Shown: positions 11,831 to 40,648 of the stretch, piece after piece
Position numbering within the stretch: position 1 is the stretch's first letter
Layout: every line of letters begins with the position of its first letter
Assembly (NCBI GenBank): GCA_963383645.1
Contig: OY726565.1
Location: 34,825,529-34,889,528 of the forward strand
Length of the DNA: 64,000 nucleotides
From: Muscardinus avellanarius
Taxonomy: Eukaryota > Chordata > Mammalia > Rodentia > Gliridae
Direction of reading: 5' to 3'
Program-made: the position numbers and the translations under genes
The notes under the pieces: model-generated
What the model was told of the DNA's origin: nothing
Databases searched by the model: none
Seen by the model: only the letters and a program-made list of their open reading frames with translations

Positions 11831-12009
11831 TTGTTAATTTATATTTTACTATGTTTTCTTTTTATTATAAATAGGCCCTCAAATACAAATGAACTATAAT
11901 CCCTAACTGTGAGAACTGGGGTCTGCTCCTGAGACAAGTGACTCTGGCTGGGGAGGTGTGAACAGAGAGGTGGATCTTATTACTTCAATCTTCTCTTGAG
12001 TAAGGGATT

Positions 12010-12300
12010 TTTAAAAAATATATTTTTATTGGTGCACTGTAGTTAAACATCTCAATGGAATACAAGATTTGTGAGGATATACAAGCACACATCACCCAAT
12101 TAGCCTTTATCCAATCCCCATCCCATTCTCTCCCCCTCCCTCCATCCCATGCTTGATTTAGTGATTGACTTTGATATATTAAGTACATCATGTGTTTTAA
12201 AGAGATTCCATCTTCCCCCTTCCCGTCCCCTCTGATAGGTCACCTTAATTGTTCCTCCATAGGGCCCTTTCTTCAACTAGATTTCCTCCTATTACCCATT
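12010..12300 (-). repeat. L1-type 3' tail of the composite element
   Basis: Plus-strand TTTTTATTGGTGCACTGTAG, then the C-rich CCATCCCATTCTCTCCCCCT and CATGCTTGATTTAGTGATTG blocks. Related stretches occur alone at 35372-35545 and 58745-59030 (minus) and 23755-23905 (plus), with a shorter one at 28500-28640. AATAAA at 12030-12025. Confidence 0.8.
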
Positions 12301-12369
12301 TCTTCCTAGTTTTTGCATGTTGGGGAAAGCATATGATTTTTTTTTCTGTGATATTTCCCTGGGGATGCG

Positions 12370-13500
12370 GCATTGCAGGCTCCAATTCCACTCTCAAAGG
12401 CCGCAGCACTGGCCTCGCCTCATGGCAGGCTTCAATCCTGGCCTCGCAGGCCCCAGCACCAGCCTTGTCTCATGGCAGGCTCTGATCCCAGCCTCAGAGG
12501 CCCCAGCGCTGGCCTTGCCTTATGGCAGTTTCCTATCCCAGCCTCACAGGCCTTGGTACCGGCCTTGCCACATGGCAGGCTCCAATCCCGTTCCTTGGAA
12601 GCCCCAACACTGGCCTCACAACACAGCAGGCTCTGATCCCAGCCTTGCTGGCCCTGGCACTGGCCTTGACTCATGGCAGGCTCTGGTCATGGCCTCGCTG
12701 GCCCCAGCACTGGCCTCGCTACATGGTAGGCTCTGATCCCAGCCTCACTGGCACCAACACCGGCCTCACCACACCCAGGCTTCAATCCTGGCCTCATTGG
12801 CCCCAGCAATGGCTTCACCGCATAGCAGTCTTTGATCCCAGCCTTGGAGGCTTCAGCACTGGCCTTGCCTCATGGCAGGCTCTAATCCTGGCCTTGCTGG
12901 CCCCAGAACTGGCCTTGCCACATGCAGGCTTCAATCCTGGCCTCACTAGCCCCAGTACCAGCCTCGCCGCATGGCAGGCTCCGATGATCCCAGCCTCGAA
13001 GGCCCCAGCACCGGCCTCCCCACATGGCAGGCTCTGATCCTGGCCTCACTGGCCCCAGCACCAGCCTCACGGCATGGCAGGCTCTGATGATCCTGGCTTC
13101 GGAAGCCCCAGCACTGGCCTTGCCTCATGGCAGGCTCTGATCCTGGCCTCGCTGGCCCCGACACTGGCCTCACTGCACAGCAGTCTCCTATCTCCACCTC
13201 GGAGGCCCCAGCACCAGCCTCCCCACATGGCAGGCTCTGATCCCAGCTTCACTGGCCCCAGCACCAGCCTCAAGGCATGGCAAACTCTGATGATCCTGGC
13301 TTTGGAAGCCCCAGCACTGGCCTTGCCTCATGGCAGGCTCTGATCCCAGCCTTGCTGGCCCCGGCACTGGCCTCACTGCACAGCAGTCTTCTATCTCCAC
13401 CTCGAATGCCCCAGCACCTGCCTTGCCTCCAGGCAGGCTCCTATCCTGGCCTCAGAGGCCCTAGCACTGGCCTTGCTGTGCTGTGGGCTCTGGTCTCTGT
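12370..13500. repeat. 50-bp VNTR, about 22 copies
   Basis: GC-rich units built around CATGGCAGGCTCTGATCC, CAGCCTCGCTGGCC and CCAGCACTGGCCT. CATGGCAGGC recurs at 12421, 12471, 12521 (variant), 12571 and so on, giving a 50-base period; a few units gain or lose bases. Because 50 is not a multiple of 3, open frames on both strands pass through it by chance. They are not protein genes. Confidence 0.95.
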
Positions 13501-13529
13501 CACTGTGAGTAGGTTGTCTACAGATGTTC

Positions 13530-13830
13530 CCATTTTTCTTTATTTTTTTTAAATATGAGAAAGCAATACATGTCTTTTGCAAAAGCTGGGAGCCCAAATA
13601 CCTGGTGGCAATGAATTTTTTCTCCCCTCTGAAGGCAGAGGTCCACAGCTTCACTACAGAGAGCAGGCCCTGCTGCTCCTTGTGCACCCTGGCCTCCTGC
13701 ACTGTGCAGAGGAGCATGGTGGCCATGAAGGCTGATGTCTCCCAGAACATGCAGCATGGCAGCTCAACTCAGCTATGTGGGGCTCCCTCTGATACACCCC
13801 AAACATTTTTACCACTTAGCATGTTGTCCA
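13530..13830. repeat. Long direct repeat, copy 1, of the composite element
   Basis: Contains CAATGAATTTTTTCTCCCCT, GCAGAGGTCCACAGCTTC and CCCAGAACATG. The same order (CAATGAATTTTATCTCCCCT, GCAGAGGCCCACAGCTTC, CCCAGGACATG) recurs at about 14830-15125. The two copies flank the array of about 170-bp units. Confidence 0.8.
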
Positions 13831-14830
13831 GAATTCCTGAGCATGTGGGGCAGGAGCAGTCTACTTTGGAGGAGATTTCCTCAAAAGTTCAAGGTGGATT
13901 GGACTGGATCTGTCTGTCCCTCCAAACACTGGTCACCACCATCACCACCGCTGCTTCCACTGCCATCTTGGTTCTTTCCTGAATACCTTACCCACACAGC
14001 ACGTTTTCCAGAATTCCTGAGCATGTGCAGGAGTAGCAGTCTACCTTTGGGGGGATTTATTCAAAAGTTTAAGGTGGATTGGAATGGATCTCTGCCTCTC
14101 CCAAATACTGGTGGCCGCCACTGCCACTATCACCATCTCAGTTCTCTCCCAAACACTTTTCCCACATGGCGTGTTTTCTGGAATTCCTGAGCATGCGCGG
14201 CAGTAGCAGCCTACTTTTGGGGAGATATCTTCCAAAGTTCAAGGTGGATTGGATCGGATCTCTGGCTCTCCCAACTACTGGCTGCCACTGCTGTCTTGGT
14301 TTTCTCCCAAACAACTTTCCCACACAACATATTGTCCAGAATTCCTGAGGATGTGCAGCGGTAGCAGTCTACCTTTGGGGAGATTTCTTCAAAGATCAAG
14401 GTGGATTGGATCAGATCTCTACCTCTTCCAATTACTGGCTGCCACCACCACTGCCACCGCTGCTGCTGCTACTCCCATCGTGGTTCTCTCCCCCACACTT
14501 TTCCCACACAGCATGCTGTCCGGAATTCCTGAGCATGCGTGGTGGTAGCAGCCTACATTTGTGGAGATTTCTTCAAAAGTTCAAAATGGATTGGATTGGA
14601 TTTCTGCCTCTCCCAAATATGGCTGCAGCTGCTGCCCCTGCTGCTATTGCTGTCCTCCTGGTTCAACCCTGAACACCTTCCTTACATGGTATGATATCCA
14701 GAATTCCTAAGCATGTGTGGCAGGAGCAGTCCCCCTTCGCAGAGATTTTTTTCCCAAAAGTTCAAGGTGGATTGGATAGGATTTGTCTGCATTTCCTGAA
14801 TACTGGCTACCGTTGCCATCTTGTCCCCCC
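13830..14830. repeat. Array of six units of about 170 bp
   Basis: GAATTCCTGA followed by GCATGYG recurs at 13831, 14011, 14181, 14339, 14523 and 14701 (spacings 180, 170, 158, 184, 178). Each unit also holds GTTCAAGGTGGATTGGAT (or a variant) and a stretch of GCC/CTG-like triplets whose length explains the variable period. Confidence 0.92.
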
Positions 14831-15125
14831 TCCAATATTTTTAATAAAAAAAGACAGATGTGTGTTGTGAAGAGGTTGTGATATCGAGCACTCAGCAGCA
14901 ATGAATTTTATCTCCCCTCCAAGAGCAGAGGCCCACAGCTTCCCTGCAAAGAGCAGGATCTGCTGTTCCGAGCACATCACAGCCCCCAGTGCAGTATAGA
15001 GGACTGCAGTGGCCAGGCACGCTGAGTTCCCCAGGACATGTGGCTGGGCTTCCCGCCCGGCATTGCTGGGCTTCCTCCACCATACCCGGATCATTTTTCT
15101 TACAAGGTATGTTAAGAGTTCCCCA
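14830..15125. repeat. Long direct repeat, copy 2, of the composite element
   Basis: Partner of 13530-13830, in the same orientation. It is followed by GGGCTTCCTCCACCATACCC, which corresponds to the edge of the unit array in copy 1. Confidence 0.78.
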
Positions 15126-15418
15126 GAATGCATGGCTAAAGTGGTATTTTCTCTAATCATTTCTAGGATGTTCTTCCAAAAATCACTTTTCTTGCGTGGC
15201 GGGTGCCTCGTTGTCATCTTGCTTCTAATTCTGCCATTATTCACTCTCTCTCCTATATTCTAGATAGGAAGTCACGGCTGGGAATGCCTCCTTAAGTTGT
15301 CCCAATCAGATATTAAACCAAAATGTGGTGTCCAGGGCTTCTCCAAGGAATGCATGTCCTATTCGGCACCTGAGGTTGCCACTGCGGCTGTGGCCACCAC
15401 CATCTTGCCCCTATCTCC
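15126..15418 (-). other. 5' domain of the composite element
   Basis: About 290 bp of non-repetitive sequence. On the minus strand the element would begin GGAGATAGGGGCAAGATGG. The AAGATGGTG core is the type of YY1-like site found at L1 5' ends, and the same nonamer lies at the 5' end of the L1 at 38418-38410. Promoter activity is inference. Confidence 0.6.
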
Positions 15419-15582
15419 AGTAAGGGATTATTTTAGAACTGCCAGTGATAGCATGCCCTACAAATACCAGAGTTAATTAAGAGTTAATTAAGAGTGTGGA
15501 CTAAAGTCTATGATTTGTTCTTATAGTAGTGAGATAAGTGTTTTTGCCCCACAGAAATAAGTACCATTTATAACCTAATCTA

Positions 15583-26900: not shown

Positions 26901-27569
26901 TTTGGAAAGAATGTATTTTCTCAGAACCTTTTTAGCAACAGCATCAGAATAGGCATTTGGAACTAAATGTTTTTATTATCTGTACTCTGTTGCATAACCT
27001 TTTGTTGTAGGTTCACATGATGTACATTTAAGGGTGGAGCTTTGTAGTGAGGATGGCAGTGTGCTGAGTTTTCATTGACTGTAGGAGGGGAGCAAGAGCG
27101 TAGGTGAGATTCTCTTAAAGGTTTAGGGAATAAGAGAAGGGGCAGAGGACTTTTGTCATAGGGGGCTTGTTATGCAAACACAAAGCAATTGTAATTCAAG
27201 TTGGTATATATTCTAAATGTAATGGTTCCTTTTGTGTTGTGTATTTATATAATATTTCCCAGCATCCAGCTTTACCTTCTGACTCTTGTTACTTACGTGA
27301 ACAACAGAATGTTTTCTCTGCTTGGTTGTTCTTAATTTTCATATAGATGAGAGGCTCCCTTTGCTTGAGCAGCTTCACATTTTACAGACATGTTTCACTA
27401 GAGCTCAGTGTCTCTTCTTCCCCAAGTTCTTCTTGAAGTATTTATAAGAGTTTTAGATGATCTAGATTATACACATGTGCTTACTTGTTTGCCCTTCACG
27501 GAAAGCAGAAGGCTGTGTGTTAAGTTTGAAAACCTTATTGTAACACAATTAAATTCTGTTCACCACATT
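23906..27569. other. AT-rich single-copy DNA, low repeat content
   Basis: 3.6 kb with no SINE, L1 or LTR that I can recognise. No open frame above about 67 codons and no splice-bounded coding pattern seen. Could be intron or intergenic. Confidence 0.5.
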
Positions 27570-27873
27570 ATTTGGATTTTCTTTCTGGCTTTTTAAAATA
27601 GTGTTTCTGATAAATGTAAATTTTCAAATTGTAGTTCTATATTATTCACTAAAACATTGTGTTTCTATATATGGTGACATGCTTACTATTTAATAACAGG
27701 CATGATTATCTTTGAGTTAATATTTGGATTTTCTTTCTGGCTTTTTAAAATAGTGTTTCTGATAAATGTAAATTTTCAAATTGTAGTTCTATATTATTCA
27801 CTAAAACATTGTGTTTCTATATATGGTGACATGCTTACTATTTAATAACAGGCATGATTATCTTTGAGTTAAT
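27570..27873. repeat. Perfect tandem duplication, 2 x 152 bp
   Basis: The segment starting ATTTGGATTTTCTTTCTGGC at 27570 is repeated base for base from 27722 and runs to TTGAGTTAATATT. I see no mismatch between copies. Confidence 0.97.
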
Positions 27874-27875
27874 AT

Positions 27876-28499
27876 TCTTATTATGTCTGAGTATTGAGAA
27901 GAAGGTTTGAATATTTCTTAATCAGTTTATTGCAGAAGAGTTCAAATATTAGGTAGGTCCTTATTAGAGAAATCTGACATTGGAGGTAAGTAGCTATACA
28001 GATTCTTTAGCTAGAGAGTGAATCTTAAACATTTTCTACCATAAACTCTAGCAGAAGTACTTTTAACCTGTGATCTGGTTGATTTATAAATTCATAAGAA
28101 CATGGCATGCATGCACACACATATGTGAACAGACTGAAGTAAAAGAGTCATGAAGTAACACTGTTATATGTGATGTCTTCTAGTATTTTCATAATATTCT
28201 TTTCTATAGCTATGGGTAGGATATATGTTTGCTTTTAAAAATGCTGGTCAAGCTGAGTACATTGCTTTTATTCACTAGTTAATTGTGATGTACATTTTAG
28301 AAAAGACTGATCTAGACTCAGGCTTACACCTTGGAGTTCTTGGAGCAATAACATTTTATGTATTAATATGTAGACTTGTTTTTCTGGACATTGTGTTCTT
28401 AAGTTTTATCAGATTCTCAAAAGGTCTCTGTTCTTGATGAAGGAAACAATAATGTTAGTTACATATATAAAATGATTAATACCTATCTCAATAACATGT
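27876..28499. other. AT-rich single-copy DNA
   Basis: Nothing recognised. Confidence 0.5.
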
Positions 28500-33870: not shown

Positions 33871-35370
33871 CATTCACAGGCCATAGAACTAGGGGGAAGA
33901 AAAGACAAACTAAGATTTGTGTTACCTGTGTCGTCTCCTGCTCAGTGGTGTTATTCTCTGTCCCTTTCTTGCCTATCTTTTTAACCTAGTTTATTATCCT
34001 ATATATTTCTTATTCGAATCTATGTTTGTTTCTTTCTTCTATTTTCCCTCTATTTTTTCACTATTTGTACTTTTATTACTCATTCATGGTAGTCTCACAA
34101 AGTAATAAAATGAAATTACTTATTTGTAAACATCTATTTGCAAAATTTTCTACCATTAAACTATTTTTGGTAATGTATCGGTCTTGAAGTTTTGAATATT
34201 CTGAACTTACCTTTTCTGTTCACCTTTTCTGAGCTTACCATTCTCCTGTTTTTATTTTTTGTAAGAGTTTTTTTCATTCTTTTTAGGAATCTATTTTTAC
34301 ATGTTGTTAGGTAAAGCTAATGCAGATATTTTAAAAATTATCTTTTTACATTAACGTTTGCTCTTTTCCCTAACAACCAAAATGAGCTGCCCATTAGGTT
34401 AAGTTAGTTTGGAGAGAAAACAAATGACTTAAATTTGTTGTTGGTCATTAATGCGACAACCAGTGAACATAAGCAATGACTCTAGTTTCCCTTTATAGAA
34501 GGTGAATAATGGTGAGCAGTTCAGGTCCTGTGGTGGTCACAGATGCATATGTCAGCAAGTTGACCCTGTATGCAGAGCACTAGGGCACACAAAAATTGTT
34601 TGAATTCCATCTGATCAGAAGATGTCTGAACATTTAGGGTATTGAATCCCATTGGAAGAAATTTCTGGTTGTATCTGAGCCATTCCACTTTGATTTTTAC
34701 TGGATTGTGGAGATAAAATATTGACAGACTTTTTCTTTTTTTTATAATTTATCTATTACAATTTCATATGACTTGAACCCAAGAAAATAATAATATTGAC
34801 TGTGTGAGAAGTTAGACTAACCTCACTCTGAGGAGGTATATTTCCTTCTCTTCCTCTGATGCCCTTGAGGCAAATGACAGTGGGAATATCTCATGCATGT
34901 TAAAAGCTGATATCTGCCAGGAGAATTAGTCAGCATATCCTAGATTTATTTTCAGTCTCCCATGAATGCAAAATGAGAGCCTCCTCTGCACAATGAACAC
35001 ACTTTAGTATTGGGGGTGACTGCAGTCTTTACCTGGGGAAGGAAAGGTCTGATTAGACAGAAAGAAGGTTTTTTTTAAAAAATTTTTTTTTTAAAGAAGG
35101 ATCCTTCAAATCCAATTCAGCTAAATTATCTACCAAATCACAGTTAACCTCAAGTAAAACATCAGCAGAATTCACTTAATGGAAATGTCTTTCCTAAGAT
35201 TTCCCAGTACTCTAAACATTCTTCATCAGAAAATGTGACAAAAAGCAGACAGAAAAGTAGGCATAGTTTCCTCTGAGCTTTACATAATGTTTGATTTTAA
35301 CAGAATTATTATGCGCAGAAAAAAGTTAAGAAATTTTCTTTGACTTAGAATGTGATGGAATTATTTTTTT
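33871..35370. other. AT-rich single-copy DNA
   Basis: 1.5 kb without a recognised repeat; small open frames only. Confidence 0.5.
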
Positions 35371-35371
35371 T

Positions 35372-35545
35372 AATTTAATTTTATTTTTTATTGGTGCACT
35401 GTATTCATACATCATAGTGGGATAAAAAAAAAAAAACTTTTGTAGACATACATGCACACATCGCCCAGTTAGCACCTACCCGATCCCCACCCCATTCCCT
35501 CCCCATCCCTCCTTCCCATGCTTGGCTTAGTGGTTGACATCTAGT
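35372..35545 (-). mobile_element. Short L1-type 3' end, same family as composite tail
   Basis: TTTTTATTGGTGCACTGTAT, ACATGCACACATCGCCCAGT, ACCCCATTCCCTCCCCATCC and TGGCTTAGTGGTTGACATC: block for block like 12010-12180. Could be a 5'-truncated copy of the composite element or of its L1 donor. Confidence 0.8.
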
Positions 35546-35689
35546 ATTATAGCAATTTATCAAAAATTAAAAATGATAATCTCACATAACAGTTTCATTT
35601 GTCTGATACCAAGCTTTTAATGACTTAAAGATAACATTACAATATTTCTTTTTGCTTTCTTTCTTACCAGAGGATATTTTTTTCTTCAT

Positions 35690-36415
35690 TTTTTTAGGTG
35701 AAACTATCATATATTTATTTATTTTCCAGAAAAAATCTATCCTAATATGGAATATGGACTCTAGGTACCCACAACGATCTCAAAAAAGAAGCTAGAAGAT
35801 GTATATTTTCTGATTTCAAACCATATAAAGCTACAATAATCGAAACAGTGTAGTACTGTTATAAAGGTAGATGTATAAACCATTGGAGTTAAATAGAAGT
35901 CTAGAGATAAATTCTTCTATATATTGTCAAGTTATTTTTGACAAGGTTTCCACGAACATTTGGTGGAGGAAATAATAATCTTTTAACTAAATATTGTTGA
36001 AAAATAATAATTACATGGAAAAGAATAAAATTGGGCCCTTACCTAACCCCATATACAAATATTAACTCAAAATAGATAAAAGACCTAAATATAAATATTA
36101 AGACTATAAACTTTTAGAAGAAAATCTGGGTCATAAAACCTCACAACACTGAAATTATTTCTTGGATATGATTTCAATGGCACAGGCAACAGAAGGGTAT
36201 ACAAAATCCCTAAAAAATAAAAAAAAATTGTATATCCAAAGACAATGTAAACAGAGTTAAAAGTTACTGATAGAATGGGATAAAATATTTCCAAATGCCA
36301 TATCTGAAGGTATATTAATATTCCAACTAGAAATCCTAAAAATTAGCAACAATAAAAGCAAACAATACAATTTAGAGATAGGTAAAAGACTAAGATAAAT
36401 AATTAATCTTCACAG
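35690..36415 (+). mobile_element. Old L1 ORF2 fragment
   Basis: Contains AACTCAAAATAGATAAAAGACC and CTTTTAGAAGAAAATCTGGG, typical of L1 ORF2 upstream of its C-terminus. Many stops. It ends where the next, opposite-strand L1 piece begins. Confidence 0.7.
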
Positions 36416-36685
36416 ATAACCAATCTTAGTTGTCCTTTGGATGGAAAATCTTGTTTCTCTGGTTCTGGTGTGTGCTACCTATTTCTTCTTTGTAGTTAAT
36501 CTCTTTGAGTATTTTCTCTCATGCTGGTTTTGAAGACATAAGTTCCTTCAGTTTCTGTTTGTCATGGAAGCTTCTTATTTCCCCATGTAATTTGATAGAA
36601 AGTTTTGCTGGGTAAGGAAATTTTTGGCTGGAAGTTGTTTTCTTTCAGGGTTTAGAATATGTTACTCCAAGCCCTTCTGGCTCTC

Positions 36686-36924
36686 ATGACTTGGTTTGGG
36701 AAGTCTGGAGTGATTCTAATTGGTTTGCCTCTGAATGTCACCTGGCTCTTTGTTTTTGTTGCCTTTAAGATTCTCTGCTTGGCTTCCACATTGGTCATTT
36801 TGACAATGACTTGGTTTGGGAAGTCTGGAGTGATTCTAATTGGTTTGCCTCTGAATGTCACTTGGCCCTTTGTTTTTGTTGCCTTTAAGATTCTCTGCTT
36901 GGCTTCCACAAGGTCATTTTGACA
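36686..36924 (-). repeat. 120-bp tandem duplication inside L1 ORF1
   Basis: ATGACTTGGTTTGGGAAGTC starts at 36686 and again at 36806. The copies differ at about two substitutions and one small indel. The 120-bp period equals 40 codons, so both copies read in the same ORF1 frame. Confidence 0.96.
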
Positions 36925-37505
36925 ATTATGTGGTGTGGGGATCCTCTTCTTTGATCCTGTCTAAAGGGAGTTCTATAAGTTTCCTGGACCTGTGTATCGA
37001 CCTCTTGCTCTATGTTTGGAAAATTTTCTGCTATTACTTCCTTGAAGAGATTGTTGATCCCTTTTGTTTCACCTTCTTTTCCCTCTTCTATTCCAATTAT
37101 TGTTAGGTTAGCTCTCTTAAAATGGGCCCATATTTCTTCAGTGTCAGATTCCTGCTGTTGGATTTTTTTCTAAATTAGAAACTATGCATACATTTTTGGA
37201 GTGCTCATCTTCTAAGAGCGAGATTCTATTCTCCATGTGGTCTAATCGGTTGTTTGTACTTTGAATTGAGGCCTTCACTTCATTAATTGCATCCTTTATC
37301 TCTTTTGGCTCTCTCTGAATTCTTTTTGAAACAGCTCTATTATTTCTACAGTTATTTTCCTGATTTGATCTTTTAGAAATCTCTGAATTTCTGTTTTATC
37401 ATGTTCTGATGTTGTGGGGTTGTGGACATTCATTGCTCCATTGTTATTCCTCTTTCCCATGATTTCAGAAGTTTGTGCCTTCTCTGGGTTCTTCCCTTGG
37501 GTCAC

Positions 37506-38425
37506 TACGACTTCACTTAAGGTGCTGTGGATCTCGAGTCTATGGTATCTCAGTCCCCACTACTCCTTTACTGGGTTGTATTGCAGAGTCTCAGACCCAA
37601 GGAGTCAATCGAGGCTGCTTTAGACTATGGGGGGTGCCAGGTTGGGCATTCTCTTATGGTGTGATGTCTCTGCCACCGCCACTTCCCCACTGGGTCAAGT
37701 CCCTGGGAATGCAGTACTGGGATTTCTCCTCTAGGGGCCACAATTTGACTCACTGTTGAGTGCGCTGATGGAACTGTAGTGGACTTGGTGAATTTGCTGC
37801 TGCTGCCGCCAGTGGCAATATGGCGCCCCTGTCCTGCCCTCTGGCCGTGAGGCTGGCGTATTTCTTTTCTGGTTTTGAGCTCCTCTCTGAGTCCCTGCAG
37901 GGTGTGCTGAGCCCAGCCACTGGGAGCTTTAGATGCTCTTTGCGCCAAGAAATCTGCTGAATTCTGCCCAGCTGTTCCGCAGCAGCTCACCTCGGCTTGC
38001 CGTTTGCCGCTCCTCTCTGGAGCCTGGTGGGCTGTTGAGTGCGTTGGTCTAGAGCTGTCCGGTGAACTTACTGCTCCCGCTGGCAGTAAGGCGCTGCTGC
38101 TGCATCCTTGGCCGTGAGGCCGGCGTATCTCCTCTCTGGCTCTGAGCTCCATTCTGAGTCCCCATCCTCTCTGGGGCCTGGTGCTGCAAGGGAAGATGGC
38201 GCCCGTGCCGTTCCATGCTGTGGCTCCAGCCGCAGCACTGTGGTCTTGTTTCTTTCTGGTGTCTCGTTTTTCCAGCCCTCTTTTTCTCTGTCCCTTGTAA
38301 TTACATTTTTTTTTCTCTGCTGATAATGTTTTCTGGCTATGAAAGGTGCTGATTTTGTGGTAATAGAGATTGGTTGATAGCGGGGCTCATAAGCCCCACT
38401 TTTCTCCATCACCATCTTCCCGGAA
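37506..38425 (-). promoter_or_regulatory. L1 5' UTR with tandem monomers
   Basis: CTGTTGAGTGCG occurs at 37753 and 38032 (279 apart), and GCCGTGAGGC or its variant at 37844 and 38111 (267 apart), each followed by GGCGTAT and TCTGAGTCCC. So there are about two tandem units of 270 bp plus a partial third. Mouse L1s use tandem promoter monomers; a similar role here is inference. Long minus-strand frames (37625-38152, 38068-38505) are CpG-rich UTR and not genes. Confidence 0.8.
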
Positions 38426-40648
38426 GTTCCCCTGGAATTCTTAATTCTTTCAAAAATATTATGGAATGCTTGCATTGTACAATATCTGCGCTTAACTCTG
38501 GGCAACCAGGGTTCACTCTTACTCCATAATCATTTCTTGTGATAAGTCTTCTGCAACAAAATTTAATATACGAAAGAGCACACTGGGACACAAATGAGTT
38601 AGTGGGGTTTTATAATGAGAGAGGTGGAGTATAGTAAAAGATACTTAAAGATTTTGTCTCCTTGGAGTAGGCAGTTTTCTAAAAGTAACAAATATTGTCA
38701 CCAGGAGATGAAGCCAAAGGTGTGAAATAACTTTTAACTGAAGAGGGTAAAAATAATGGAATAATTTTGAGAATAATAATAAAAATATATGCTACCTTGG
38801 GACTAGCCTGATTTAGTAAACAGTAGGGCACTGGTTTCTCAATCACCAAAGGACAGCTGTAGAAGCAGAACTGAGTCAACAAGGGAAATAGCATTGATTA
38901 TGCACCTTTCTTTGTGCTTTATCTTATTTAATCTGCGCAATAAACCTGTGAGGCATGGAATATCTTTTTCAATTTCTTCATCTGTCAAATAATAATTTGC
39001 ACTATTATCTAGTTCTTAAATGTGATGATGTCTGAGAGATAATGTGAGTATTCAATAGGGCATGTCAAATATTTAGAGCAATTACTGAGACCAGGAAAGA
39101 ACTGCATGTAGGGATAGGTTATTATATGAAACAGCATGTTGAGGGAGATAGTAATAGCTATGGAGCAGGGAAGAGAAAGTAGCACTAGGGCTGGAAGGAG
39201 AGCCAGGGCGAGAGAATTCTGATTGACTCTACCTTGGCTTTTGCTTAACTACCTAAAATCATGCCTAGGGAAAAAAATGAAAATGGGTTACAATTGCCTC
39301 AGGCTTTCTTCTCATTTGCTCTTCTCCGACCCAACTCTCAACACCCTAGTACAGCTCCTGCTTCCCAGAATATGACAGGATCTACATATACACTTCTCTC
39401 TTTAACTATCCTAAGTTTGTGTCTTCAAGGCTTTTGGTTCTACCTCCCAAATGTTTTTGCCTCTGTTTCTTCCTTCAGTAGTCAATTATCTGTTGGTTAA
39501 ATTGAAATGTAGATTAATAAACTGTTCTAGAAGTAGATGTAATTTAATATTCTCATTCAAGAAATACATGTATATTTAACTAGATGAGTTTTAGAAACAA
39601 ATCCTTAAATAAAAGAAGTGAATCTATTGAGGTGTTTTCATTTTTATGGCGATAAAGACAAATTGGGTAAAGGTAGCATGCCCTTATGTTTCTCAGCTCA
39701 CTATTCATTAAATCTCCCATTTTCTGTGACCCTCTCAGCACCAATAAACAGTTGAAACAGGTGCATTCAAAGTCTGGCAAACTTCTGTGCTGGTCCAACT
39801 TCAGTGTTTGTGAAAGTAAAACTTGGGAAATCTGAATCTTAAACATTCATCTATTGATTCATTTTTCACATTTTGAAGGTACTTCATTTTTCATAGATTG
39901 TGCTATGTCTCTAGTTGTTCAATAGCTTTCTTATAGAAGAAACAGAATTATCCAAGTGTTGCTGCTTCAGGAGGGAATGAATTTCTGATATATCGTATTT
40001 TGGCAAGGTTCTATAACTAGATGAGTTATTTTTTGTCCCTCAAAGGCTCTTTATTAAATGGCCACTGGACATATCCATAATGCTAATGCCTTTTTGATTT
40101 AGTCTTTTTGGATGACTGCTTTTTCTGTGGCTCAGGGCTTTGGATCCATCTCCCAGTGTTCAACTAAAAGGGAAACTCTGGGTAAAATTTTCCAGTGCTT
40201 TAGTTTTACATCAGGGTACTCAGGTCACATTCTTCACTGAGGTTGGAAGTACACTAAAGTAATTGAAAATATGTACACCGTTAAATATAATTTGATTTAT
40301 GTGGATCCAGGCTTTGAAGTTTTCCATCCTCAACAACTTATTTTGAGAAAGGAAAGATTGTTCTGGTCTGAATTATGCTTATTTATTAGCTCACTTGAAA
40401 AATGGAAAGGGGCTTCACTCTTTTCCACACCTTTCATTCCTGCCTACTGTACAGCTGTTCAAAGTTATCTCCTGATACACTCTCTGAAGAATTAAAGCTG
40501 AGAATAACACTTCTGTTTTTATTCAAACAATGTGTGCTTATCTAAAATTATATTAGTCACTAAAATATTTTAACTAATTCATTAAGAATTTGTAAATAAG
40601 TTGTCAAATTCTACCAAATATATGTTCTATGAAAAGTACACTTAAAAT
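38426..40648. other. Single-copy AT-rich DNA
   Basis: 2.2 kb; no SINE, L1 or LTR recognised. Open frames up to about 88 codons show no family features. Confidence 0.5.

Follow-up and report, generated by a model that had tools for sequence, protein, structure and literature searches.

High-copy, SVA-like VNTR composite elements with an L1-derived 3' end in the genome of the hazel dormouse

Introduction

Non-coding composite retrotransposons with a central array of variable tandem repeats (VNTR) include SVA (SINE-R-VNTR-Alu) of hominids and LAVA (L1-Alu-VNTR-Alu) of gibbons. The HAL1 (half-L1) elements are another type of non-autonomous family, derived from L1 and ending in an L1 tail. The L1 elements of mouse carry tandem promoter monomers in their 5'UTRs. 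VNTR composites are described as specific to hominoids (PMC4432496, PMC7353768), and 5'UTRs are described as having been swapped in mammalian L1s (PMC5753468).

Here, we analyze a 64,000-nucleotide stretch (the window) of chromosome 8 of the hazel dormouse (Muscardinus avellanarius mMusAve1.1). The original prediction, made from the sequence of the window, was that it contains a non-autonomous SVA-like composite of a rodent family, and this is supported by dispersed copies of common structure. We consider the element to be one copy of a composite retrotransposon family of the hazel dormouse that is abundant, non-coding, and non-autonomous and is copied through RNA by L1 proteins, a reading to which, leaving aside the source of the 5' part, we assign a probability of roughly 90%. 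The family was not found in searches of the dormouse and mobile-element literature, and it may correspond to an existing unnamed or uncurated entry of Repbase or Dfam.

Structure of the element

The composite element occupies positions 12010–15418 of the window on the minus strand and is flanked by exact 11-bp target-site duplications. Its parts, from the 5' to the 3' end, are:

15419–15429, no strand: target-site duplication at the 5' end of the element (AGTAAGGGATT), an exact 11-bp match to 11999–12009
15041–15418, minus strand: CpG-rich 5' domain, defined by genome hits with a common start and a profile match at 15411–14830
15400–15407, minus strand: CAAGATGG motif near +12, with AAGATGG near the start of copies
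14829–15040, minus strand: repeat R1 and link 1, with a 74% match to 13608–13751
13791–14823, minus strand: array of ~170-bp units, about six including a partial last one, from nhmmer units and self-alignment
13477–13790, minus strand: repeat R2 and link 2, with an R2 profile match at 13790–13534
12393–13476, minus strand: 50-bp GC-rich VNTR of 22 units, from TRF and nhmmer
12352–12392, minus strand: VNTR-to-L1 transition, the approximate site of the genome-wide junction marker, from the junction pattern
12017–12351, minus strand: L1 module of the last ORF2 codons and the L1 3'UTR, from alignment with nine independent L1 3' ends and the 3' module profile
about 12112–12152, minus strand: polypurine tract within the L1 3'UTR, part of the L1 module
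12025–12030, minus strand: AATAAA polyadenylation signal, read from the sequence
12010–12024, minus strand: A-rich tail, read from the sequence, overlapping the module end by a few bases
11999–12009, no strand: target-site duplication at the 3' end of the element, an exact match to 15419–15429

The predicted exact 11-bp repeats that bracket about 3.4 kb are the only two occurrences of AGTAAGGGATT in the window. The mean number of matches expected by chance is 0.11, and two matches were obtained in one of 100 shuffles. Just 0.3% of 342 mismatched flank pairs reach the score of the window copy's own pair.

The 5' domain had been predicted to be unique, but its second half (profile positions 231–579) reproduces, in diverged form, the region of the last unit, repeat, and link. 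The majority sequence of the domain, determined from 19 copies, begins GGGGCAAGATGGCGGTGGCC. The sequence AAGATGG is located at most about 20 bases from the start in 19 of the 20 fetched copies and also in the window copy. The CAAGATGG motif near +12 is similar to the YY1 site found at the 5' ends of L1 elements. As predicted, the array of ~170-bp units lies inside a direct repeat, the two parts of which (13608–13751 and 14898–15040) are 74% identical. The 50-bp VNTR was likewise recovered by TRF, at 12398–13473 with 21.4 copies, against 22 units counted with a profile. The 3' end, described in the prediction as L1-type and A-rich, is derived from L1 but is wider than was proposed, comprising the end of ORF2 and the 3'UTR in addition to the A-rich end. 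It has matches at four other places in the window, two of which are recognised as L1-type tails. The AATAAA signal is retained in 13 of 18 copies with both ends, the window copy among them.

The prediction that neither ORF1 nor ORF2 is visible holds for ORF1, similarity to which was absent from 12010–15418, but the last codons of ORF2, and only these, were recognised in a comparison of DNA rather than a protein search. A coding function of the 5' domain, the majority sequence of which contains frames of 104 and 117 codons, was considered and rejected. The counts of synonymous and non-synonymous substitutions in the two frames are near the neutral expectation (198/472 versus 211/459 expected, and 178/414 versus 165/427 expected). 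In-frame stops interrupt the 104- and 117-codon frames in 11 and 6 of 19 copies, and frame-changing gaps are present in 13 and 11 of 19 copies, respectively. Two long frames of the 5' domain have no similarity to Pfam. An origin from 7SL/Alu or another RNA of the Rfam collection was also rejected, as there was no Rfam match at E<=1.

Dispersed copies in the genome

The family has thousands of dispersed copies, and the copies examined have a common 5' start, module order, VNTR/L1 junction, and 3' end with an A-rich tail. All 40 scored genome hits, including the window copy, begin within query bases 1–14. The marker of the VNTR/L1 junction, which the window copy carries with two mismatches, occurs 13,061 times in the genome (reversed control 0), and the 5' marker occurs 1,656 times (control 1). 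The VNTR is located upstream of the junction in all 22 matches inspected, 19 of which came from the 20 fetched loci. In an alignment, the junction is common to six composites and absent from nine L1 3' ends. Some copies are tens of kb apart, for example three 5' markers at C3:157.74-157.77 Mb.

The 20 fetched loci are those closest to the window copy and not a random sample of the family. Both ends of the element are present at 17 of them, one of which contains a nested insertion, and the 3' end is missing at the remaining three. A VNTR of 5 to 32 units was found in 17 of the 20 loci scanned. One copy is truncated inside the VNTR, and in another (L043) R2 was not detectable by profile search.

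The original prediction named a single copy as the outcome that would speak against a family, and thousands of copies were found instead. It also offered an alternative in which an old L1 was stripped of its coding region and the VNTR expanded after insertion. Such a history, with the arrays of a single L1 growing at this place, would produce an L1 tail and tandem arrays at one locus, as observed, but the same arrays and junction are present at many dispersed, independent insertions. Because the VNTR and arrays are common to dispersed copies, they did not grow in place, and the junction shared by independent insertions refutes this history, which retains practically no probability. The idea of an L1 without its coding region fails at this locus and survives only in another form, in which an L1 deletion product carrying an old 5'UTR gave rise to the family.

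Insertion hallmarks

Most copies that could be judged have different target-site duplications at different places. The score of a copy's own flanks exceeds the 95th percentile of the scores from 342 mismatched pairs in 11 of 19 copies, and nine of these 11 duplications start at T/AA, a count in which only the preceding T is informative, because the start of each block was set by extending over A's. The remaining eight copies do not have a duplication above the control threshold. Two of them (L042 and L044) score equal to it and one (L031) just below; the flanks of L033 were paired with an unrelated L1 tail; and scores well below the threshold were obtained for L034, L036, L040, and L047. The prediction had proposed that a family would be established by multiple copies that share the 5' start and junctions and differ in their target-site duplications, and such copies were found in the window's own genome. 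It had also called for the empty site in relatives; for one copy, which is inserted in an L1 tail, a paralogous empty site was observed in uninterrupted relatives of that tail.

The tandem repeats in the element, the copies within tens of kb of one another, and the flank scores under the threshold in six of 19 copies might indicate that the family spread as DNA, by segmental duplication or as a dispersed satellite, and not through RNA. However, common ends, A-rich tails, differing target-site duplications, and the empty site speak against this explanation. Furthermore, 300-base flanks of different copies have stretches in common in just 5 of 210 pairs on the 5' side and 8 of 153 pairs on the 3' side, and these stretches are short and repeat-like, some of them reversed, and mostly at shifted offsets. 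We regard spread as DNA as very improbable.

Relation to L1

In a tree of tails, 21 composite tails are separated from 12 L1-type tails by a branch with a support of 100/100. Three additional composites identified in flanks branch from within the other composites, with a long stem of good support. The neighbouring forks are poorly supported, and the tip lengths of the three (0.023, 0.025, and 0.074) compare with 0.022–0.071. With low-support forks and overlapping tip lengths, these composites may be either an older or a younger derived variant. The tail tree is consistent with one capture of the L1 tail and the later formation of at least two subfamilies.

The genome contains many intact 1278-aa L1 ORF2 frames, and the L1 machinery therefore exists. 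The L1 hallmarks of the copies suggest that the family is mobilised in trans by L1 proteins. Transcription by Pol II would start at the CpG-rich GGGGCAAGATGGCGG end, and the RNA would be terminated by the polyadenylation signal that came from L1. Nicking of T/AA sites and reverse transcription of the composite RNA may then be carried out by L1 ORF2p, perhaps together with ORF1p. The founding step may have been a fusion, within the last ORF2 codons, of an L1 tail with the repeat-rich 5' part.

The 5' part was probably derived from outside L1. The competing possibility is that the founder was an L1 from which ORF1 and ORF2 were lost internally. In that case, both ends of the composite would be L1, with the 5' domain and 170-bp units representing a monomer-type 5'UTR from an older, extinct L1 lineage. 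The position of CAAGATGG near +12, a likeness to L1 5' ends, is compatible with this origin, as are the tandem promoter monomers of mouse L1. One young autonomous L1 (L051) and one ORF1-only element likewise begin ...GGGAAGATGGCGAC, and replacement of 5'UTRs is on record for mammalian L1s (PMC5753468). However, neither the 5'UTR of this young L1 nor that of the ORF1-only element matches the 5' domain, the units, or the VNTR significantly. Moreover, the 5' domain does not continue into an ORF1 of the same element at any of the 20 loci, and the sole ORF1 among them is carried by the nested insertion of L044. An extinct 5'UTR is the less likely source, although not an implausible one; with this origin, too, the family would be non-autonomous, carry a VNTR, and be mobilised by L1. 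We favor the origin of the 5' part outside L1.

Comparison with known composite and L1-derived elements

It is somewhat more likely than not that the dormouse lineage evolved VNTR composites of its own from unrelated parts, as a second and independent origin, in which they reached several-fold the copy number of human SVA and formed at least two subfamilies. If this is true, placing a GC-rich VNTR between a 5' domain that resembles a promoter and a 3' tail would be a repeatable way to use L1 proteins. A rodent family of the same plan with other modules provides a second case for asking about the role of the VNTR, because only features common to both can be general requirements. The copy number suggests that such elements can exceed ten thousand copies, and at thousands of dormouse loci the family contributes sequence that is rich in GC and CpG and variable in length.

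The dormouse family has tandem units of ~170 bp near a promoter-like 5' end, similar to the ~170–200 bp monomers of the mouse L1 5'UTR, but its units are not followed by ORFs and lie within a larger duplicated block. As in an L1 deletion derivative, the 3' end comes from L1. The family resembles HAL1 in being L1-derived and non-autonomous with an L1 tail; however, HAL1 is described as encoding ORF1p (PMC5753468), whereas coding sequence was not detected in the dormouse element. The hazel dormouse genome separately contains an element of the HAL1 type that has ORF1 only.

The likeness to LAVA lies in a VNTR followed by a 3' end containing an L1 fragment. In LAVA, the 5' region is hexamer/Alu-like as in SVA, and the 3' part is described as consisting of AluSz and L1ME fragments (PMC4432496), whereas in the dormouse family a natural L1 3' terminus serves as the element's own 3' end.

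With SVA, the family has in common a non-coding composite structure, a central GC-rich VNTR, an A-tail, target-site duplications, and subfamilies. The unit of the VNTR is 50 bp long, compared with 35–50 bp given for SVA (PMC5753468), and a VNTR of the SVA/LAVA type, with 30–50-bp units and variable length, is present in the dormouse copies, as are the L1-type insertion marks (target-site duplications, A-tail, and T/AA). Dependence on L1 has been demonstrated for SVA, and we infer it for the dormouse family. The host is a rodent instead of an ape, and the 13,061 junction markers compare with about 2,800 SVAs reported in human (PMC7353768). All four hominoid families begin with a CT hexamer and an Alu-like region, whereas the dormouse family begins GGGGCAAGATGG...; a tandem repeat scan of the window found no CT hexamers in the dormouse copy, and an Alu-like domain was not found by Rfam search (E<=1). 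The 3' end is formed by an L1 tail, in contrast to the retroviral SINE-R of SVA. It differs from each of the hominoid 3' modules (SINE-R, L1ME+AluSz, PTGR2, and FRAM) in being the ORF2 end and 3'UTR of L1 tails of its own genome. The dormouse family works like SVA and LAVA but is not a member of their group, as an Alu-like domain, a CT hexamer, and a known 3' module were not found in it.

Organization of the window composite and its relatives

The composite retrotransposon in the window is one member of a dispersed family. It is located on the minus strand, and its modules are arranged in a fixed order.

Features of the composite and of two loci discussed below
12010–15418, minus strand (15418 down to 12010): composite element, 3,409 bp
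Minus strand, first module at the element 5′ end: 5′ domain, CpG-rich, starting GGAGATAGGGGCAAGATGGTGG
Minus strand, after the 5′ domain: direct repeat R1 and link
Minus strand, after R1 and link: about six ~170-bp units
Minus strand, after the ~170-bp units: diverged direct repeat R2 and link
Minus strand, after R2 and link: VNTR, 22 units of 50 bp
Minus strand, after the VNTR, element 3′ end: L1-type tail, AATAAA, A-rich end
Locus L031, 1587–1952, plus strand as fetched: 5′-truncated composite of subfamily B
Locus L051: young autonomous L1, start near base 229, ORF1 ATG near 1687, intact ORF2

All the parts named in the original prediction of an SVA-like non-autonomous family (5′ domain, arrays, VNTR, L1-type A-rich end, and 11-bp repeats) were located in the window. 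The 11-bp repeat, AGTAAGGGATT, is exact on both flanks of the element and has no further occurrence in the window (expected matches 0.11).

The searched assembly, mMusAve1.1, comprises 104 contigs with a total of 2,497,143,478 bases; the window is C8:34825529-34889528, on hazel dormouse chromosome 8. The hazel dormouse assembly is given as 2,497.5 Mb in 212 scaffolds in an excerpt of PMC11190645, and some small scaffolds may be absent from the contigs searched. The first 178 bases of the element were used as a query, and 40 of the 2,329 first-look candidates, including the window copy, were scored. All 40 matches begin at query bases 1–14, as expected for a family of copies sharing the same 5′ start. 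The 20 best-scoring of the other 39 loci were read as 10-kb stretches and have a common module order, except for gaps and insertions in individual copies: R2 is not detectable in L043, and the 5′ domain of L050 contains an insertion. Both element ends are present in 17 of the 20 loci, among them L044, which carries a nested L1-related insertion; the copies in L033, L039, and L046 are shortened. The 3′ ends read ...CACCAATAAAAATATATT, with minor variants, followed by an A-rich tail, and AATAAA is retained in 13 of 18 copies (window copy counted). The number of ~170-bp units differs between copies. In 17 of the 20 scanned loci the VNTR ranges from 5 to 32 units; in L044 it falls beyond the scanned part, and L033 and L046 are without a VNTR. 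Beside the composite in L045, but not within it, the sequence at about 190–860 yields X in every reading frame (N or masked).

A 26-base marker from the 5′ domain occurs 1,656 times in the genome (853 + 803, up to three mismatches; reversed control 1), and a 27-base VNTR/L1 junction marker occurs 13,061 times (6,485 + 6,576, up to three mismatches; reversed control 0). VNTR units are positioned upstream of all 22 junction-marker matches in the window and the 20 loci; however, 19 of these junctions belong to the window or to loci picked by their 5′ domain and three were met by chance, so that extending the result from 22 junctions to all 13,061 is an extrapolation. Human SVA and gibbon LAVA have 2,800 and 1,800 copies, respectively, as stated in an excerpt of PMC7353768.

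Subfamilies and age

The sequence flanking the 20 elements happened to contain three more composites (in L031, L033, and L042), which form a second group, subfamily B. Their tails are 90–93% identical among themselves and 77–82% identical to four tails of subfamily A, the composites resembling the window copy. The stem of subfamily B has a support of 100/100, whereas there is little support for where it branches within subfamily A, and the tips of the two groups overlap in length. A B-type 26-mer occurs 4,458 times in the genome (2,217 + 2,241, at most one mismatch; control 0), and two of the three B copies have the tail CACCAATAAAAATAAATT. In the L033 B copy, no R2 is detectable between the units and the VNTR.

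The mean distance to the majority sequence, with CpG-prone sites left out, is 0.054 for the 5′ domain (19 copies), 0.068 for R2/link (17), and 0.055 for the L1 tail (18). The mammalian substitution rate is near 2×10^-9 per site per year, a value that is not dormouse-specific, and gives an age of the order of 25–30 million years for these copies, which were picked by likeness to the window copy.

L1-derived tail and probable insertion by L1

The L1 portion covers the last ~340 bases of the element. Six composites can be aligned with nine independent L1 3′ ends from late ORF2 codons through the 3′UTR. The homology starts within SEISQSQK-like codons (so read in six of the nine L1 ends), ~13–16 codons before the stop, and upstream of these codons it is not evident between the same sequences. 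A tree was built from 33 tails; one branch, with a support of 100/100, separates the 21 composites from the 12 L1 or L1-like tails, the bootstrap being not fully settled. The simplest reading is that the L1 tail was acquired in one capture event.

Target-site duplications were assessed by aligning the 5′ and 3′ flanks of 19 copies against 342 mismatched flank pairs. The own-flank score exceeds the 95th percentile of these controls in 11 copies, including the window copy, equals it in two, and is below it in six. One of the six is L033, whose low score reflects the pairing of its 3′ end with the tail of an unrelated L1. The duplicated block starts with T/AA in nine of the 11 above-threshold copies and with C/AA or G/AA in the rest; since the start is fixed by extension over the A's, only the T is informative. 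The L1 endonuclease prefers TTTT/AA, which the T/AA starts fit. When 300-base flanks of different copies were compared, shared stretches turned up in 5 of 210 5′ pairs and 8 of 153 3′ pairs. They are short, some reversed, and mostly lie at different offsets, which is the pattern expected of other dispersed repeats. The L035 copy sits within the tail of another L1, and its flanks, joined over the duplication, continue through other tails (window 58846–58747, 82%, 100 columns; L033, 83%, 90 columns), which identifies a paralogous empty site. Many intact 1,278-aa frames among 150 scored of 26,731 RT-domain candidates indicate that L1 machinery is present in the dormouse genome. Judged from these sequence hallmarks, the composite inserts in the manner of L1 cargo.

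The anatomy suggests how copies would arise. The CpG-rich 5′ domain is most likely the start of Pol II transcription, and the transcript would end at the L1-derived signal; the resulting non-coding RNA would be copied in trans by L1 proteins at nicked T/AA sites. Truncation at the 5′ end, as in the L031 B copy, fits such copying. The role of the LAVA VNTR in retrotransposition is a subject of PMC4432496, according to an excerpt, and by analogy the VNTR of the composite may help retrotransposition.

Neighboring elements

A second non-autonomous element, with an L1-type 5′UTR, ORF1, and an L1 tail, is present at window 35364–38450 (minus strand) and L044 4208–6991. The two copies are collinear, with 88–91% identity over most of their length and 82% at the 5′ end. 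The ORF1-to-tail distance is about 0.9 kb, too little for a full ORF2. The element resembles HAL1 (half-L1) and looks like an independent HAL1-type dormouse family. Its ORF1 region contains a 120-bp tandem duplication (window 36686–36926, 96%). The best 150 scored of 38,950 ORF1-domain candidates have no stops, and most are in 329-aa frames with equal scores. Among the matches listed for contig C1, compared by eye, the best-scoring ORF1 domains do not adjoin the best-scoring RT domains; this observation and the ORF1-only element itself point tentatively to a young family carrying ORF1 alone. Elsewhere in the window, 27569–27876 is a perfect tandem duplication of 152 bp in two identical copies, which is either of very recent origin, polymorphic, or an artefact of assembly.

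Source of the 5′ part

Against the 5′ domain, units, and VNTR, the 5′UTR of the L051 L1 gave no significant hit (best E 0.24), and neither did that of one ORF1-only element. Compared with these two, the 5′ part of the composite appears not to be that of present L1. The main rival explanation for its origin is an extinct L1 5′UTR, kept because the element start, GGGGCAAGATGGCGG, resembles L1 5′UTR starts with a YY1 site. The last unit, R2, and link 2 together make up a block of which the second half of the 5′ domain is a diverged duplicate, and the 5′ region was therefore probably built up through nested duplication. No coding signal was found in the 5′ region, no Pfam match for two long frames in the 5′ domain, and no Rfam match for the element. 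Inspection by eye shows an irregular, GGAGCGGCCAGAGC-like repeat rich in GC at L051 400–900, inside the 5′UTR of that young L1, so GC-rich arrays also arose in dormouse L1.

Comparison with known composite retrotransposons

Titles and opening lines of abstracts in the open-licence literature yielded no rodent, squirrel, dormouse, or other mammalian family of this kind. The SVA-like variants named in an excerpt of PMC4982230 are primate elements only, and a corresponding excerpt of PMC5857283 names no rodent case. It is possible that an uncurated Dfam or Repbase entry for the family exists. The dormouse composite appears to work like both SVA and LAVA. However, the hexamer/Alu-like region shared by the SVA/LAVA group and its known 3′ modules were not found in the composite, and the host is a rodent, which places the family outside that group.
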